A stretch of 64,000 nucleotides of DNA. It comes from Bacteroidaceae bacterium (GTDB lineage Bacteria > Bacteroidota > Bacteroidia > Bacteroidales > Barnesiellaceae_A). Where the stretch lies: assembly GCA_017410245.1 (NCBI GenBank), contig JAFQRE010000017.1, positions 131,296 through 195,295 of the forward strand, read 5' to 3'. Shown here one piece after another: positions 23,728 through 30,006 of the stretch (positions are counted from its first letter, which is position 1; each line of letters begins with the position of its first letter). Position numbers and translations under genes: made by a program. Below the pieces are notes generated by a model, which made no database searches, was not told the origin of the DNA, and saw only the letters and a list, made by a program, of their open reading frames with translations.

Positions 23728-26235
23728 TTATACTATTTCAATAAGCTCAACGTCGAATATGATGGTTGCGCGAGCCGGAACATAGCCGTTCCCATCACCA
23801 AAGGCAAGCTCGGCGGGAATGTACAAGATGTAGTGTGCGCCTTCTTTCATTAGTTGCATTCCTTCGCTCCACCCCGGTATGGTATTGGTTAGGTTAAACC
23901 GAACAGCCTCCTTTCCTTTATTGCTGTCTATCACAGTTCCATCTGTAAGCGAGCAGGTGTAGTTACACAATACCTCGCTATCGGCATCGGGACTCTTGCC
24001 TTTGCCTTTGCTTATCACTTCATACTGCAGTCCGCTTGGCAGTGTCTTAACCTCCTTTCGGGTGGCATTCTCTTTTAGATACATTTTGCCCTCGTCTATA
24101 GCCAAGAATTTGCTGCTTACCCAAGCCTCATTGCCATAGTAGCTGATGCGGGCAAAACCGTTTCTTATCTCATATACTTCCACTTCTTCGTTATATTTAA
24201 GGCCACCCAATTGTTTGGCCGATGAAGAGGGCTCTTGGCGCACGATTACTCCCGACTGAGCTGTGCAGTAGTAGGTTGTTGTATCATCATTTACTACATA
24301 TTCGACAGCCGAGGTAGGTTCATCGTCCGATGAGAATATTGAGAAAAAGGCTCCTATGGCCGGTAAGATATTGAGCGCAATTACAATAAATGCTGTTATG
24401 AGGAATGACCATGCACTGCTGAAGATTAATTGCAGTACCCATAGTGCAATTGTGGTGATATAGCTCATCACAACCGTGGCAAGACTAGCTAAAGCAAATC
24501 CTATAATTCCTACTATAATGGCCCATATAATGCCCTCCTCAATCAATGTAGCTACAACGGCGACGACAAGCACAATGTAAATGAGGATAGTTATCAAGCC
24601 CGAGATGTTTTCTTCGTGGTCTTCAAACCACTCGCCTATATCCCTAATCTTGTTGTCGAAGCGTGTCCATAGTGAGTCGTCATAACTGTGAGTGTGAGTG
24701 CTTGTTTGTTGCTTGCGCTTGAACACCGTAGGCTTGCCTATCTGTACATACGAGGTACTGAGTACTTTGCCCTTATAGCTGATGATTACTTTTATTTTTT
24801 CCGGCTCGGTATAATAGTCGCCTTCGCTACGACCCCAACCGCTCAGTGTGTATTGTCCGGGACCATTGATTGTCACATCGCTATCGGTGCGCGATGTTTT
24901 GCGATTTTCATACTGATACTCTATGTCGAGCGTTATACTGCCTCGGAAGTTGTTGGAAACAACGATGCGGGGTTTCAGGTAATGAATGCCGGTGGGTATG
25001 GGTGAGCCGAAATTGACCTGTATGTTGCCATCGTAGTCGGTGGCTCCGAATATAACATCAGTTATGACAGGATATTGTGCACTATTGGGGTCGGGCTGTA
25101 TAGTTGCACGGCCTTGCCATATCTTCTTGCCTTTCCACTTGAAGGTATATTCGACATAGCTATAGTGCGAGTACGAATCTCCACTCTTGCTACCCCAGCC
25201 GGTAACTTGGTATTTACCCTTGCCTTTGAACTCAATCTCATCGTTGTAGCTGGCTGTTTGGCCATCGGGATACTTGATAATTATCTCTATCTCCTCGGTC
25301 CCATAATAGTCGCTCGACACGATGAGTAGTGGCACAATGTATTGGGTATTGGTGTACAATACCTTACTGTAATCTTTTATTATATCATTATCGTATGTGG
25401 TATCGGCAAATATCACATCGCTGATGAAGATTTGGCTATCGTGTTGTTGAGGAATGGGTGTTTGTTGTTGCTTCTTCTTCTGCGGTATAGGGTCGCGACG
25501 AGGTGGCTGGTGTTTCTTGTAAAACTCGGTAATGCTCTTCTTGAATAAGTCGAACGTCTCCTTGTTGTCATACACCTTGCGAGCTACTGCGCACAAGTTC
25601 TTGCTGTGTTCTATAATCTCACGATTGGACGAGTGTAGCTTGTGTGATGCAACCAGCACCTTAATCAACTCATCAGCCTCCTCCTTCATCATGGGGCTGT
25701 AGGCCGGTTTTTGCCAGAAACTATTCAACTGCTCTATAGCAGTCATTTCGGCAATATCGAGTAGCGGGGTTATAGCCTCGCTCTTGAGGAATTGTATGGC
25801 TTTGCTCCACTTCTCGATGTTTATCATCATCATAGCCTCGTTGTGTTGAGGCGTGGGAGCTGTTTGAGGGGTTGGTGTTGTCTTGGGTGTAGGTACAGGG
25901 GTAGGTTTGCGAGTGGGGGTCCAGCCCATTTCTTTGCGAAATTGGTCAAACGTCGCGCTGTCTTTGGTATAGAATGTTTGTGCAATACCTCTCAAGGTCT
26001 TGCTCTTTTCTATAATTTCGCGATTGGACGAGTGTAGCTTGTCGCACTGTTTGAGTAGCTCGATGCGCTTTTCGCATGCACTTTTGTCAAATTCGTTGTT
26101 CCTCCAATAGTCGCACAAAAAGACAATGGCTTCCTGCTCGTCCGATGCCAGTTGCTTCTTTATATCGGGCGAAGCAAAGAAGTCGCAAGCCTTTTTCCAC
26201 TCGGCAATTTTTTGTAGGAGAAGTGTCTTATCCAT
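23728..26235 (-). CDS. large membrane protein: duplicated helical module, two beta-sandwich repeats, membrane segments, SH3b, FKBP
   Basis: An 835-residue protein with unusual architecture. Residues 1-103 and 140-240 are two copies of a helical module, both with LHSSNREIIE (67-76 and 200-209) followed by a helix with SK-x-L; a Pro/Thr-rich linker joins them. Residues about 269-380 and 390-500 are two beta-sandwich repeats (each starting I-[ST]-DVIF and containing TGWGSKSGD or LSGWGRSEGD). Three or four membrane segments lie at about 545-635. An SH3b-like domain follows (655-712, GVIVRQEPSSSAKQLG, AWVSSKFL) and a C-terminal FKBP prolyl isomerase (about 728-835, with IPGWSEGMQLMKEG and YIPAELAFGDG). 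There is no N-terminal signal peptide. It is the third gene after the GrpE-like and Hsp70 genes, so a folding or assembly role is likely. No HPD (J-domain) motif is present. Confidence 0.85.
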   Translation of the reverse strand: MDKTLLLQKIAEWKKACDFFASPDIKKQLASDEQEAIVFLCDYWRNNEFDKSACEKRIELLKQCDKLHSSNREIIEKSKTLRGIAQTFYTKDSATFDQFRKEMGWTPTRKPTPVPTPKTTPTPQTAPTPQHNEAMMMINIEKWSKAIQFLKSEAITPLLDIAEMTAIEQLNSFWQKPAYSPMMKEEADELIKVLVASHKLHSSNREIIEHSKNLCAVARKVYDNKETFDLFKKSITEFYKKHQPPRRDPIPQKKKQQQTPIPQQHDSQIFISDVIFADTTYDNDIIKDYSKVLYTNTQYIVPLLIVSSDYYGTEEIEIIIKYPDGQTASYNDEIEFKGKGKYQVTGWGSKSGDSYSHYSYVEYTFKWKGKKIWQGRATIQPDPNSAQYPVITDVIFGATDYDGNIQVNFGSPIPTGIHYLKPRIVVSNNFRGSITLDIEYQYENRKTSRTDSDVTINGPGQYTLSGWGRSEGDYYTEPEKIKVIISYKGKVLSTSYVQIGKPTVFKRKQQTSTHTHSYDDSLWTRFDNKIRDIGEWFEDHEENISGLITILIYIVLVVAVVATLIEEGIIWAIIVGIIGFALASLATVVMSYITTIALWVLQLIFSSAWSFLITAFIVIALNILPAIGAFFSIFSSDDEPTSAVEYVVNDDTTTYYCTAQSGVIVRQEPSSSAKQLGGLKYNEEVEVYEIRNGFARISYYGNEAWVSSKFLAIDEGKMYLKENATRKEVKTLPSGLQYEVISKGKGKSPDADSEVLCNYTCSLTDGTVIDSNKGKEAVRFNLTNTIPGWSEGMQLMKEGAHYILYIPAELAFGDGNGYVPARATIIFDVELIEIV

Positions 26236-26255
26236 TGAGTTACTTTGTCAAAAAT

Positions 26256-26286
26256 GAGGTTGTGCCCTGTTGTAAGACACAACCTC
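26256..26286 (-). terminator. hairpin between the Hsp70 and FKBP genes
   Basis: A perfect 9-bp stem (26278-26286 with 26256-26264), 13-nt loop, then ATTTTTG on the minus strand. It could partly end transcription and lower expression of the membrane protein relative to the chaperone. Confidence 0.55.
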
Positions 26287-26318
26287 TATCCTTAGGCAAA
26301 TAGTTAGTTTTACTTGTC

Positions 26319-27911
26319 TTATACGGTGGCGTTCGCGATGAAGTTTTGCGATTTTTTCAGTTCTTCTTCGTTCTTCACGCCGGCAACTTTGAGTTTGAAG
26401 TCAATCACATCGTTCTCGCGTGTGGCATTGACACTCAAGATACCTTCGTTGTCGATACTGAATGTTACTTGTATCTCGGTACCTTTGGGGTGATTACCGG
26501 TAATCTTCAACTCTTGTATCTCTTCGGTAGCCAAGTTACAGAAGCGGTCTTCTACGGTGCGATCTTTCTCCTCATCGGTGAAGTCGCTCTCATAGATGGG
26601 CAGTGTAACACCGGTTTGACCATCGCGAACTGTCTCGAATGTGCGAGTGCGAGATACAGGAAGTGTTGAGTTGGCAAAAATCATGTTACCTACTTGGTTG
26701 TCGATAAGTCCGAGTCCATAGGTCTTGCTGGTTACATTGACAATGCGAGTACGACCCGATGTGCCGAGAGGCATGGGACGAGGACCTTCGCCTTCGTCGG
26801 CTTTTTTGAGTGCTATATCGTATGCCTCGTTCATGGCGAAGATTGCAGCTCCCTTGGCAACACACTCATCGGGGTCGGTGATGTGTGTGGGAAGGCCAAA
26901 CTCTGCTTCTACGCGCTCTTTGATTTGAGGCATTTTACTGCTACCACCCACGAGAATAATCTCATCGATAGTATTATAGCCTTTTTCCTTGGCAATGTCA
27001 ATAATCTTGCGAGTGGCATCGATGGTCTCATTCAAGCGATCTTCGGTAATGGCATTGAATGTTTCGCGGGGAAGGTCGAAATTGACCGATTTGCCTTCGT
27101 AAGAGAAGTTGATTTTGGCTGTTTGACGAGCTGTAAGGTTTTTCTTCCAACCCTCGGCACTGAGCAACAAGTCATACTTGGCATTGGGCGAGAGTGTCTC
27201 AAAGTCGTAAGAAGTGCCGTTTTGTTGGTTGAAGGTGTTGAGTACATATTTAGCCAACTCGGTATCCCAATCGACACCACCCAAGTGGTGGTCTCCACCG
27301 GTGGCAATTACCTTAATGGCACCACCATTTACAACGATAATGGTAACATCGAATGTACCGCCACCCAAGTCGTAAACGAGAATTGTGCGACGCTCGTCAA
27401 CCTTCAAGCCGTATGAGATAGCCGCAGCTGTAGGCTCATTGATGATAGCCAATACGTTGAGGCCGGCACTGATACCTGCTTGTTTGGTTTGCAAACGCTC
27501 TTTGTTACCAAAGTATGCAGGGCAAGTGATAACAACATCTTTGATGGGCTCGGGGTTTTCGCCCATGTCGTTGGCATCTTTTACAAGTTTCTTAAGAATG
27601 AGTGCCGAAATCTCTACAGGGTCGCAGTGGAATGGAGTTGTATTCTTGGTCTTGTCGAAAGCCTCATCGTTACCAATCTGACGTTTGATGAACGATACAG
27701 TCTTTTCAGGCTCTATAGGCAACATGTTTTTAGCCTCTTTACCAACAATCATATTGCTTTCCGACTCGAAGTAAACTACCGATGGAGTGGTTGAGTCGCC
27801 TTCGAAGTTGCGTAGTACGACTGCTTGATCATATTTGTCAACTTGTGAAATACAACTGTATGTTGTTCCCAAGTCAATGCCGTAAACGGCTCTGCTTTTA
27901 TCGTCTGCCAT
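26319..27911 (-). CDS. Hsp70 chaperone without the C-terminal lid
   Basis: A 530-residue Hsp70. The nucleotide-binding domain is complete: GIDLGTTYSC (11-20), NEPTAAA (158-164), DLGGGTFD (181-188), VGGSSKMPQI (321-330). The beta substrate-binding domain spans about 395-512 (TLPVSRTRTFETVRDGQTGV, GNHPKGTEIQVTFSIDNEGILSVNA). The protein then ends within 20 residues, so the alpha-helical lid and tail of DnaK (about 100 residues more) are absent. The interdomain linker, VLLLDV in DnaK, is replaced by a run reading TRIVNVTSKTYGLGL. It follows its GrpE-like gene by 27 nt and is clearly not the housekeeping DnaK. It probably uses the encoded GrpE-like protein as exchange factor; substrate unknown. 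Confidence 0.92.
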   Translation of the reverse strand: MADDKSRAVYGIDLGTTYSCISQVDKYDQAVVLRNFEGDSTTPSVVYFESESNMIVGKEAKNMLPIEPEKTVSFIKRQIGNDEAFDKTKNTTPFHCDPVEISALILKKLVKDANDMGENPEPIKDVVITCPAYFGNKERLQTKQAGISAGLNVLAIINEPTAAAISYGLKVDERRTILVYDLGGGTFDVTIIVVNGGAIKVIATGGDHHLGGVDWDTELAKYVLNTFNQQNGTSYDFETLSPNAKYDLLLSAEGWKKNLTARQTAKINFSYEGKSVNFDLPRETFNAITEDRLNETIDATRKIIDIAKEKGYNTIDEIILVGGSSKMPQIKERVEAEFGLPTHITDPDECVAKGAAIFAMNEAYDIALKKADEGEGPRPMPLGTSGRTRIVNVTSKTYGLGLIDNQVGNMIFANSTLPVSRTRTFETVRDGQTGVTLPIYESDFTDEEKDRTVEDRFCNLATEEIQELKITGNHPKGTEIQVTFSIDNEGILSVNATRENDVIDFKLKVAGVKNEEELKKSQNFIANATV

Positions 27912-27938
27912 AGTTTTATATGTTTTTAATTGTTATTC

Positions 27939-28730
27939 TTATTCTGTTGGTTCTTCCCATTTGTAGCAAGCTACACGTGCCGGACGTATGATTTTTTGTG
28001 TGTCTACATCGCGGAATCCACCATAGTATGTTTTGGCTATACGGCGGTTTTGCTCGGGTGTAGTAGCGGGTATGACGTTGAAAGGTTTGTGTGCTTTGGG
28101 GTTAAATTCTTCATTCTCCTCGGGGGTGAAGTACTCTACACCGAAGTCGTTGTACACTTGGTTGCTCAGAGCATCTACCGCACTCTTAAATTCATTTAGC
28201 AAGTTTTTGTACAACTCAGTCATATCGGTGGCTGTGTTGTCGAGTTGGTCGAAGTGTGAGTATGTGTCGAAGAAGCGACGGTGCAGGTCGAGAAGGGCTA
28301 CCAAGTAGGGTTGCGTTACCTTGGCAAAGAAGTCTCCTTTGTAGCGTTCCAATTCTTTGTGCATAGCACGCATATTCTCGTCTTGTATGTCACGATGGCC
28401 TATCAAGGTTTTTAGTTCATCTTGTTGCGCTTTCAGTTCGCCTATTGATGCAGTCAATGCTTCTAACGCCTTCGTGTAGTCAATAGACTGTGCATCGGGG
28501 ACAATTGAGGGCTTAGGCTCCTGCTCGCATTCGCATTGGGGTGTAGGTGTTTCTTGGGATTGCTCACCTTGTGACTGAGCCTCCAATTGTGCAATGCGCT
28601 CTTTCAAGCGTACTATCTCTTGGTCTCGTTGAGCAATCTCTTGTTTCTGTTGTTCATAGTCGGCCTTGATTATTTCAAGAGCTTGTTCAATGCTCTTTCG
28701 GTCGCTCTCTTGATTGCTAAAAATACTCAT
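27939..28730 (-). CDS. GrpE-like nucleotide exchange factor with a long coiled-coil extension
   Basis: A 263-residue protein (GrpE is usually about 190). It opens with a coiled coil (about residues 8-55), an acidic Pro/Cys-containing linker (ETPTPQCECEQEPKP), a second coiled coil (about 78-130), a four-helix-bundle-like middle, and a recognisable GrpE beta wing: FNPKAHKPFNVIPATTPEQN, then IRPARVACYK, where GrpE has DPxxHEAV and RPAxVxV. It should dimerise and release ADP from the adjacent Hsp70. The ATG at 28730 is chosen; an ATG 27 nt upstream is the alternative. A full-consensus promoter stands upstream. Confidence 0.85.
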   Translation of the reverse strand: MSIFSNQESDRKSIEQALEIIKADYEQQKQEIAQRDQEIVRLKERIAQLEAQSQGEQSQETPTPQCECEQEPKPSIVPDAQSIDYTKALEALTASIGELKAQQDELKTLIGHRDIQDENMRAMHKELERYKGDFFAKVTQPYLVALLDLHRRFFDTYSHFDQLDNTATDMTELYKNLLNEFKSAVDALSNQVYNDFGVEYFTPEENEEFNPKAHKPFNVIPATTPEQNRRIAKTYYGGFRDVDTQKIIRPARVACYKWEEPTE

Positions 28731-28814
28731 GATATATTCTATTATTGGTGATTTCATTGTTCGGAACTACTTGTTTCTGCTTGAATATCGAGTGTATAAA
28801 TACTCATGCTATTA

Positions 28815-28845
28815 CAAAGGTACTAATAATTATTAGATAACCAAA
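28815..28845 (-). promoter_or_regulatory. promoter of the GrpE-like/Hsp70/FKBP operon
   Basis: Minus-strand TTTG (28842-28845), 19-nt spacer, TACCTTTG (28815-28822): a full match to the vegetative Bacteroides promoter. Transcription would start near 28808. Nothing resembling a CIRCE or other heat-shock operator is seen. Confidence 0.75.
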
Positions 28846-28925
28846 GGAATGTTCAAATTTTTTATGCATTCACTCTATCGCACTCAATGTTGCAAAGTCT
28901 ATTGCATCTTTGCAATAAAAAAGAT

Positions 28926-29162
28926 ATGATGAAGGTAGATAAAATGACAATACAACTATGGGTTGCATGCATAATGTGTATGGCCGGATTGGTTTTGATA
29001 TTTTCGGGGTTCTGGGTAGCTCCAGAAGGGGAGATACACCAGAGCGTGTTGGTCGCTTTTGGCGAGGTGGCAACTTTTGCCGGTGCTTTGTTTGGGGTTG
29101 ATTACAGTTATCGCATGCGTGGTAGAGGTGCGAATGATGATAAACAGGGAGGCGTGTCATGA
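28926..29162 (+). CDS. phage-type holin
   Basis: A 78-residue protein with two membrane segments (about residues 9-29 and 42-61) joined by a short loop APEGEIHQSVLVAFGEVATF and a basic/polar tail (YSYRMRGRGANDDKQ). The GEIHxSVLVAFGE loop is what I recall from holins of Bacteroides phages. It would form the inner-membrane lesion that releases the endolysin. The ATG at 28926 or 28929 is the likely start. Its last 4 nt overlap the M15 peptidase start, as in compact phage lysis cassettes. It is divergent from the chaperone operon. Confidence 0.7.
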   Translation: MMKVDKMTIQLWVACIMCMAGLVLIFSGFWVAPEGEIHQSVLVAFGEVATFAGALFGVDYSYRMRGRGANDDKQGGVS

Positions 29163-29566
29163 AGTATTTTGTATTGGCCGAACTGACAGATAGCGCCGTA
29201 GCTCGTCGGCTGCATATCGATAATACTCCTACACCCCAAGTGACAGAAAACCTGATAGCTTTGGTTGAGAATATTCTTGACCCGGCTCGCGAACTGATGG
29301 GTTGCCCGGTGCGTGTTAATAGCGGGTATAGGTGTGAGTTGCTCAATAGGTGTGTAGGTGGTGTGCCCGATAGTCAGCATCTGCAAGGACAAGCTGCCGA
29401 TGTGACAACAACCTCGTTGAGTGAAAATAAAAGGTTATTTGAGGTGTTGCTTTCGCTCCCATTTGACCAGTTGATATGGGAACGTGGCAATGAGCATGGG
29501 CCGGCTTGGATACATGTGAGTTTTTGTAAAGATGGTGATAACAGGAAGGAGGTGCTGAGATTATGA
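29159..29566 (+). CDS. M15-family peptidase (endolysin type)
   Basis: A 135-residue zinc peptidase cleaving peptidoglycan peptide bonds. Ligands and catalytic residues are visible: SQHLQGQAADV (His74, Asp81), Glu108 in DQLIWE, and His119 in AWIHVSF. The N-terminal part contains LMGCPVRVNSGYRCELLNR, typical of the small D-Ala-D-Ala carboxypeptidase-like phage enzymes. There is no signal peptide, which fits an enzyme released through the upstream holin. It overlaps both neighbours by 4 nt. Confidence 0.88.
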   Translation: MKYFVLAELTDSAVARRLHIDNTPTPQVTENLIALVENILDPARELMGCPVRVNSGYRCELLNRCVGGVPDSQHLQGQAADVTTTSLSENKRLFEVLLSLPFDQLIWERGNEHGPAWIHVSFCKDGDNRKEVLRL

Positions 29567-30006
29567 GACGAATTGTTTGGGTGCCGGTTGTATGTGCTGT
29601 AGCGATTGCGTTGTCTTGCACCAAAACGGTATATGTGCCTATACAACAGCATCGTAGTTGTGTAGCTCAGTTGCGCGATACGATGGTTGCAATTGTTGCC
29701 GATGGCGAGCAGTATGACAATAAAACAATCGATACTATTAGTTGTATTTATGGTAATAGAGCAATGAGTTGTGCCACTGTGTCGCAAGGCGTTTTGTCGC
29801 ATTCGCTCACAATATATCCACAACGCGATACCATAGACATGCAACTGCGCGATACCTATATTATCGACTCGGTGCCCTACATAGTTGCACCACCCGATAA
29901 TGAAGGACGGTCGAAGCCGCATTTTTCATACTGGCCTATAGTTGCATGGTCGCTACTTGTCATGGTATTGTGTATTGTAGTGTTGCTACGCAGTGTGAGA
30001 AATTGA
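29563..30006 (+). CDS. spanin-like lipoprotein with C-terminal membrane anchor
   Basis: A 147-residue protein with a lipobox-like signal (MRRIVWVPVVCAVAIALSC, Cys at about 19), a beta-rich, Thr/Asp-containing middle (SHSLTIYPQRDTIDMQLRDTYIIDSVPYIV) and a C-terminal membrane segment (about 124-143, IVAWSLLVMVLCIVVLL). A lipidated N-terminus combined with an inner-membrane C-terminus is the layout of a unimolecular spanin, and the gene is coupled to holin and endolysin; this is inference from layout, not sequence similarity. It may equally be a lysis-cassette accessory of unknown function. Confidence 0.6.
   Translation: MRRIVWVPVVCAVAIALSCTKTVYVPIQQHRSCVAQLRDTMVAIVADGEQYDNKTIDTISCIYGNRAMSCATVSQGVLSHSLTIYPQRDTIDMQLRDTYIIDSVPYIVAPPDNEGRSKPHFSYWPIVAWSLLVMVLCIVVLLRSVRN

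Follow-up and report, generated by a model that had tools for sequence, protein, structure and literature searches.

J-domain proteins are described as obligatory co-chaperones of Hsp70 (PMC7289447). In DnaK, residues R167, Q378, D393 and D477 contact the HPD motif or the J-domain, or form the switch that the J-domain opens (PMC8215388, PMC7289447), and the HPD aspartate is received by a residue that is R167 in DnaK (PMC8215388). The specialised paralogue HscC is lid-bearing, works with the J-domain proteins DjlB and DjlC, which are tail-anchored in the membrane, and is described as needing no nucleotide exchange factor (NEF) (PMC8215388). An HSP70-GrpE theme was reported by Kaur et al. (2020; PMC7159879) in GAP1-N2 GTPase-centric systems, mainly of actinobacteria and firmicutes, where the two accompany a protein of FNIII repeats that carries a DnaJ or TPR fusion.

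The window analysed here, a stretch of 64,000 nucleotides from a Bacteroidaceae genome, contains genes for a GrpE-like protein, an Hsp70 and a membrane protein (Table 1). Their closest published relative is the HSP70 and GrpE theme of GAP1-N2 neighbourhoods (PMC7159879), which likewise encodes a repeat protein with HSP70 and GrpE, is membrane-associated and includes, past a C-terminal transmembrane (TM) segment, beta-sandwich or bacterial SH3 domains; the operon differs in having no GTPase, in a genome without GAP1-N2, and its membrane partner has no detectable J domain or TPR. A sequence-only reading of this DNA had been aware of no described system with this combination, which needs qualifying since a related theme is published and the operon is not wholly unprecedented. 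HscC resembles it in being a specialised Hsp70 paralogue whose work at the inner membrane involves membrane partners of its own, but the operon Hsp70 has no lid, its partner has no J domain by Pfam and it has its own GrpE, which sets it apart from the HscC system. The Hsp70 ATPase domain, beta substrate domain and GrpE homologue are shared with DnaK-DnaJ-GrpE, whereas the lid is absent, J-docking residues are lost, the linker is changed, DnaJ is missing from the operon and the Hsp70 falls in a separate clade. Judged from sequence, some gut Bacteroidales have a second, stripped-down Hsp70 without lid and DnaJ docking site. Our main reading, to which we give a probability of about 0.5, is that Hsp70 and GrpE form a dedicated motor for a trans-envelope protein, on whose cytosolic face they act and whose periplasmic modules are exchangeable.

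Table 1. Features of the operon, listed in the direction of transcription
Feature	Coordinates in window	Strand	Basis
Bacteroidota-type promoter match TTTG-N19-TACCTTTG, upstream of GrpE-like gene	28815..28845	-	motif match
GrpE-like nucleotide exchange factor gene, 272 aa	27939..28757	-	ORF, Pfam
Region matching Pfam GrpE profile: dimer helices, beta wing	27969..28466	-	Pfam, alignments
Lidless Hsp70 gene, 530 aa	26319..27911	-	ORF, Pfam, alignment
Nucleotide-binding domain (NBD); ATPase residues retained, J-docking R167 replaced	26832..27887	-	alignment
NBD end (Q378 position = F) and lengthened interdomain linker	26730..26831	-	alignment
Substrate-binding beta domain, pocket/arch residues altered	26400..26729	-	alignment
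Stub of lid helix A; protein end in all relatives	26322..26399	-	alignment
Intercistronic hairpin then T-rich sequence, between hsp70 and membrane gene	26256..26286	-	conserved
Membrane partner gene, 835 aa	23728..26235	-	ORF, Pfam
N-terminal helical repeat 1: five helices, DKLHSSNREII motif	25915..26235	-	alignment/fold analysis
N-terminal helical repeat 2	25504..25854	-	alignment/fold analysis
Two tandem beta-sandwich (Ig-like) domains, predicted cytosolic	24736..25434	-	prediction
Three predicted TM helices, N-in/C-out	24343..24603	-	prediction
Bacterial SH3 domain (SH3_3), predicted periplasmic	24103..24255	-	Pfam, topology prediction
FKBP_N remnant and FKBP_C prolyl isomerase domain, family-variable module	23734..24099	-	Pfam, Foldseek

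Layout and distribution of the operon

The three co-directional open reading frames lie where the sequence-only reading had placed them, and Pfam matches to GrpE, HSP70, FKBP_C and SH3_3 bear out its description of a GrpE-Hsp70-membrane protein operon. This gene order is kept in 14/14 family loci, found in eight of the nine genomes of the genus and in six other Bacteroidales MAGs (Alistipes/Rikenellaceae and uncultured Bacteroides MAGs). Full-length DnaK, GrpE and DnaJ are encoded separately elsewhere in the genome. It had been allowed that this Hsp70 might be a mis-assembled sole DnaK, which is ruled out by the conserved order and lidlessness in all 14 loci together with the separate DnaK; a dedicated second Hsp70 system apart from DnaK is thus supported at the level of gene content. 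One partner (G180, L086) is interrupted by a contig end, and Ig-like hits in G215 (L052) and a hit in G278 (L053) were left out as members because Hsp70/GrpE neighbours are absent from the stretch read. Identity between the Hsp70s is 84–90% among the closer relatives and falls to 66% for two Bacteroides MAGs, with dN/dS of ~0.03–0.09, and the partner proteins diverge faster. The contigs of G008 separate the M16 gene from the TPR gene, so that a clean empty site is not readable there.

The likeness to GAP1-N2 neighbourhoods suggests an alternative in which the operon is a conflict or defence system, with chaperone-regulated assembly, a membrane effector, and variable ends as effectors or sensors. 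The published pairing of HSP70 and GrpE with a DnaJ- or TPR-fused repeat protein, and the SH3 or beta-sandwich domains past a TM segment elsewhere in those systems (PMC7159879), are in line with this, as are distant relatives carrying GrpE, Hsp70, a J-like (HPD-less) protein and TPR or Ig repeats, the variable ends, and a sporadic distribution (two further carriers among 295 genomes in the order). However, the whole genome has no GAP1-N2 (PF20013) match, and PADLOC returned weak coiled-coil matches to the GrpE-like protein and none for the other two. Relatives in viral contigs were not found, plasmid and phage matches among those listed were only DnaK-level, GC content at the operon is ordinary, and the neighbourhood with an M15 gene is kept in genomes of the genus. 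We therefore consider a conflict system unlikely. A mobile-element origin was rejected on the viral-contig and GC results and on plasmid and phage matches which, among those listed, were 31–38% identical and DnaK where annotated.

The membrane partner and its variable end

The constant part of the partner consists of the two N-terminal helical repeats, each a compact five-helix domain of ~105 aa, and the Ig-like domains. The part that follows the TM helices and SH3b varies: it is FKBP with or without thioredoxin, TonB_C or additional Ig-like domains, or is missing altogether. In the window, Pfam scores are 64.9 bits for FKBP_C and 52.1 bits for SH3_3; the FKBP is ~40% identical to FkpA/Mip over 123 columns and matches Mip/FkpA in Foldseek with E ~1e-11, so that both domain and fold identify it as an FKBP prolyl isomerase. 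The domain is shared with the periplasmic FkpA/Mip, but here it sits as a module at the end of a protein with three TM helices and is optional in the family. TonB_C at the C-terminus of one partner (L120, 76.7 bits) and a TlpA-like thioredoxin in another (L044) are envelope-type modules.

TM segments were called from simple hydropathy together with a moderately confident AlphaFold model. Loop 1–2 is acidic, loop 2–3 mostly basic and the sequence past TM3 acidic; the partner in locus L118 has a single TM segment after KKKKKKK. From hydropathy, charge and the nature of the modules we infer an N-in/C-out topology, which would place SH3b and the end module in the periplasm and the repeats and Ig-like domains in the cytosol. 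In all the family loci the hsp70 gene is flanked by that of its own GrpE and that of a membrane partner whose outer end varies between species. This arrangement suggests that the chaperone is a motor specialised for one membrane protein.

The sequence-only reading had attached prolyl isomerase activity to a folding machine in which the membrane protein takes over from DnaJ; on this view, Hsp70, NEF and an integral FKBP would jointly fold clients. FKBP and the thioredoxin-like additions of three relatives are folding catalysts, the NEF is dedicated and the J-docking site is lost, all as such a machine would have it. Yet FKBP is missing or replaced, for instance by TonB_C, in six of the 14 loci with the same Hsp70, the predicted topology puts it in the periplasm, across the membrane from the cytosolic Hsp70, and two of the three thioredoxins lack one CXXC cysteine. 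These results do not support prolyl isomerase as the defining activity and make a joint folding machine quite unlikely.

The lidless Hsp70 and its co-chaperones

The Hsp70 matches the Pfam HSP70 profile with 343.9 bits over positions 1–501 of 599, and its phosphate and adenosine motifs, catalytic residues and ensuing beta substrate domain place it in the Hsp70 superfamily. NCBIfam scores lie below the cut-offs for DnaK (327.8 and 320.6 bits versus 648 and 822.55) and HscA (318.6, 310.8 and 195 bits versus 708.55, 620 and 743), and the lidless clade is split from DnaK in the tree (SH-aLRT 99). The NBD is without the ~20-residue insert found in the genome's own DnaK. That the protein ends after the beta domain, as had been read from the sequence, is genuine: the C-terminus corresponds to about residue 523 of E. 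coli DnaK, with a helix-A stub, in all 14 family members and four distant relatives, and the alpha-helical lid (SBD-alpha), a DnaK feature, is absent in 14/14. No natural lidless Hsp70 was found in the literature searched.

The ATPase residues D8, T11, K70, P143, R151, E171, D194, T199 and D201 are retained in 14/14. At the J-domain interface, all 14 lidless proteins have A/G for R167 and F/Y for Q378 (R and Q in 41/41 DnaKs), N for D393 and S/N for D477 (D in 40/40 DnaKs at both). In the window's Hsp70, the interdomain linker has RTRIVN where DnaK has DVLLLD. P419, N170/T173 and the NEPT segment are still present, and since P419 and NEPT remain at the interface, weak J binding is possible. 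By alignment, most of the J-domain docking site has been lost, with the catalytic residues intact.

The GrpE-like protein scores 35.5 bits against the Pfam cut-off of 25.8, carries the signature FNPKxH ... GGF ... RPAR in the profile region and has the beta-wing signature, which together identify it as GrpE; by comparison with relatives, its start may be at 28730 (MSIF...). The GrpE-contact loop of the Hsp70 (N29/E31/G32) is kept, and the operon GrpE is a putative NEF for the adjoining Hsp70. Apparently J-uncoupled but NEF-equipped, the Hsp70 looks like a mirror image of HscA/HscC.

An ordinary DnaJ-dependent paralogue might borrow DnaJ from the housekeeping system, and loss of the lid and of docking residues would then only tune affinity. 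The one J-domain protein found in the genome is a DnaJ with HPD, and P419 and N170/T173 would fit such borrowing, but the four residues lost in 14/14 are invariant in the DnaKs examined and include, in R167, a residue receiving the HPD aspartate (PMC8215388), which leaves this alternative improbable. The membrane partner has no Pfam J-domain match (PF00226) and no HPD string, and its helical repeats gave hhalign probabilities of 0.1–0.2% against HPD-less J-like domains. Their best Foldseek E was 1.9 and the best VIA match (Z 7.7) was to a designed four-helix protein, in the range usual for helical bundles without kinship; no J domain was among the fold matches listed by either. The idea that DnaJ is replaced agrees with the lost J-docking residues and the absence of a J domain from the operon; the membrane protein would be a putative stand-in only, because its repeats have no detectable J-domain or lid homology. 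That the repeats are a detached lid acting in trans on the substrate domain, to which their size near that of the DnaK lid and the constant lidlessness of the Hsp70 might point, is highly improbable given hhalign probabilities <1% against 41 DnaK lids and, though not conclusive, no lid among the Foldseek and VIA matches listed.

A possible cycle and the expression signals

In the dedicated motor that we favour, the lidless cytosolic Hsp70 and its own GrpE would cycle on the partner's helical repeats and Ig-like domains. The repeats would replace a J-domain protein as the ATPase trigger, or be the constant client, or both; the absent lid would make substrate binding fast and reversible, GrpE would reset the ADP state, and the conformational state would pass through the membrane to the periplasmic module. 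A stricter version, in which the Hsp70 is freed from J-domain control, has its ATPase triggered by the repeats, is reset by GrpE and through its ATP-driven cycle alters a periplasmic module of FKBP, thioredoxin or TonB type, is speculative and seems doubtful to us; if true, a cytosolic chaperone would power work or signalling in a compartment without ATP. A clade that keeps catalysis and NEF, minus lid and J-docking, would test what the Hsp70 cycle can do without and show what else can trigger ATP hydrolysis. Because the partner is fixed and its periplasmic ends are interchangeable, Hsp70 action might be relayed through the inner membrane.

The operon had been said to start from a full-consensus promoter. 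A match of Bacteroidota type is present upstream of the GrpE-like gene, and its pattern occurs seven times in the window versus 1.13 expected, but its position is not conserved in relatives. The sole E. coli sigma-70-type 12/12 match that the minus strand holds is internal to the hsp70 gene and was discarded as chance or irrelevant. The hairpin between hsp70 and the membrane gene is kept in sequence and position across the genus, as well as at one Alistipes locus; the third gene may therefore have a different expression level, and the hairpin could uncouple expression of the second and third genes.

Conservation of the operon apart from the housekeeping chaperones

ORF analysis of the window agreed with the sequence-only reading in the place and nature of three genes, encoding a GrpE-like protein, an Hsp70 and a membrane protein. 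The genome (2.53 Mb, 99% complete) encodes a separate 637-amino-acid DnaK with a lid on another contig and a grpE-dnaJ pair on a third, which sets the operon apart from the housekeeping system; only one J-domain protein was found in this genome. The operon was present in 8 of 9 genomes of the genus examined (split over two contigs in one) and in six further named MAGs: two Alistipes sp., Rikenellaceae SIG185, a Bacteroidaceae MAG and two uncultured Bacteroides. Named carriers with a source in their title came from ruminant and deer guts. The order GrpE-Hsp70-membrane protein was kept in all 14 distinct loci, and this recurrence, together with the lid-bearing DnaK, shows that the lidless Hsp70 is no assembly error. 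Identity of the Hsp70s to the window's copy was 84-90% (66% in two Bacteroides MAGs), with dN/dS of ~0.03-0.09 (dN 0.07-0.09, dS 0.9-3.1) indicating strong purifying selection; GC content was ordinary.

The promoter proposed for the operon does match TTTG-N19-TACCTTTG, the Bacteroidota consensus (7 such sites in the window versus 1.13 expected). Its position was not kept upstream in relatives. A strong hairpin with a T-rich tail (GAGGTTGTGTC...GACACAACCTC), the sole copy in the window, lies between hsp70 and the membrane gene, and recurs at this junction in one Alistipes locus and in the genus loci whose junction was read. It may set the Hsp70:partner ratio through attenuation or processing of the message.

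Coordinates of the operon and of genes noted in the window and at loci of relatives (L-numbers; G-numbers denote their genomes)
Feature	Location	Strand	Observation
Membrane partner	window 23728-26235	-	835 aa; Pfam SH3_3 and FKBP_C at C-terminal end
Hsp70	window 26319-27911	-	530 aa; Pfam HSP70 343.9 bits, profile positions 1-501 of 599
GrpE-like protein	window 27939-28757	-	Pfam GrpE 35.5 bits (cut-off 25.8)
Promoter match	window 28815-28845		
Divergent cassette	window 28887-30006	+	resembles phage lysis cassette
Partner orthologue	L120:7674-10271		buffalo-caecum MAG; TonB_C instead of FKBP
Two tandem FGE-sulfatase proteins	L108:3513-6563 (G643)		3' of lidless Hsp70; J-like-looking N-termini; one with TM helix, one without
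Small secreted or lipoprotein-like genes	L119:6782-8771		near lidless Hsp70; no convincing family match
Small secreted or lipoprotein-like genes	L107:1736-3791		near lidless Hsp70 of another distant lineage; one protein weakly CsgG/FlgT-like, below cut-offs
Three tandem genes	L052:7651-11319 (G215)		beta-sandwich domains like the membrane partner's
MORN-repeat protein	L053:8066-10906 (G278)		C-terminal WHH-type nuclease domain

The Hsp70 and its J-domain docking surface

In all 14 members the Hsp70 keeps only ~15 residues of lid helix A and ends near E. coli DnaK residue 523, as do those of four distant relatives. A tree placed these 18 lidless Hsp70s apart from 26 DnaKs (SH-aLRT 99), the four distant rows being long branches. 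Nine ATPase and allostery residues were kept in 14 of 14, and N29, E31 and G32 of the GrpE-contact loop are retained (numbering from an E. coli DnaK sequence, checked at 16 positions). Residues receiving the J-domain are replaced (R167 by A/G, Q378 by F/Y, D393 by N, D477 by S/N, L390 by R/V), and pocket positions V407 and A429 are altered as well. Among Bacteroidota DnaKs, R167 and Q378 were invariant in 41 sequences, and D393 and D477 in the 40 extending that far. When DnaK engages a J-domain, its R167 and Q378 form bonds with the HPD aspartate and its D477 with J-domain K48 (PMC8215388); R167 and linker D393 form part of the switch opened by the J-domain (PMC7289447). From these residues we infer a probably catalytically competent Hsp70 that would still use a NEF but not a canonical J-domain, at odds with the rival reading as a DnaJ-dependent Hsp70 paralogue. 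The reverse arrangement has been described for HscA and HscC, which work with J-proteins of their own and do not require a NEF (PMC8215388).

The membrane partner

Constant in the partner, from N to C, are two helical repeats, beta-sandwich domains of Ig-like type, TM segments and SH3b. Both repeats (five helices, ~105 aa each, motif DKLHSxNREII, AlphaFold pLDDT 84) are homologous to one another (hhalign 99.8%). A further rival has the lid supplied in trans; neither lid nor J-domain homology was detectable in the repeats. Hydropathy and charge predict three TM helices, N inside and C outside, and the L118 partner has one TM immediately past KKKKKKK. One Alistipes locus carries a tandem paralogue of 599 aa composed of a repeat and Ig-like domains, soluble and with no predicted TM.

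The C-terminal module was FKBP in 5 of the 14 loci, FKBP followed by a TlpA-like thioredoxin in 3, TonB_C in 1 (76.7 bits) and extra Ig-like domains in 2, with none past SH3b in 3; FKBP is thus accessory and does not define the system. Modules such as TonB_C and those of the TlpA type belong to the cell envelope. Among the thioredoxins (L044, L046, L050), one has the active site WCGPC and the others WAGPC and WAAPC, where the missing cysteine suggests that redox activity was lost.

Distant relatives, proposed action and neighbouring genes

Lidless Hsp70s outscoring every DnaK occurred in only two other genomes among 295 of the order and two more among 395 of the phylum. A GrpE homologue lies upstream in three of these four, and in each of the four the partner encoded downstream begins with a J-like or J-like-looking N-terminus that lacks HPD: PF00226 scored 28.2 bits in L087 and 16.1, below the cut-off, in L107, the likeness in L086 and L108 being judged by eye only. 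These N-termini are fused to TPR and TM, to HYDIN-type Ig repeats, or to FGE-sulfatase with or without TM. This repetition of lidless Hsp70 and variably ended partner, with or without GrpE, shows that the theme extends beyond the window's genus.

Among published themes, the nearest is the HSP70+GrpE subset of GAP1-N2 neighbourhoods, where a repeat protein carries a DnaJ or TPR fusion and SH3-type domains stand past TM segments (PMC7159879). No GAP1-N2 was found in the window's genome, so the resemblance is to the theme and not one of membership. Our search, which covered few subscription papers, met no report of natural lidless Hsp70s, so this absence is weak evidence; a survey of DnaK paralogues showed none that were truncated in the passages covered (PMC11019930).

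The operon's existence is confirmed, as are its conservation and its unusual character. It adds a novel variant to the known Hsp70 machines, and its putative function is a mechanistic prediction, specific and testable. Genes, gene order, the loss of residues and the variable C-terminus are established by sequence, and the topology, the binding and the direction of action are predicted. The reading that we prefer, over a folding relay or a conflict system, is a dedicated motor in which Hsp70 and GrpE would work on a trans-envelope protein. Given the presumed topology, Hsp70 would bind the partner and, with GrpE, act from the cytosol on its repeats/Ig-like part, setting the state of its periplasmic end.

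The divergent cassette comprises a small, possibly 2-TM (holin-like) ORF, a peptidase of the M15 type that matches endolysins of phages (phrog_894, 108.6 bits) and a 147-aa protein of lipoprotein-like character; the latter two genes adjoin the operon in genus genomes also. The beta-sandwich genes of L052 adjoin one for an ion-channel-like protein whose RCK-type and RyR matches are weak, and the L053 protein resembles a polymorphic toxin.
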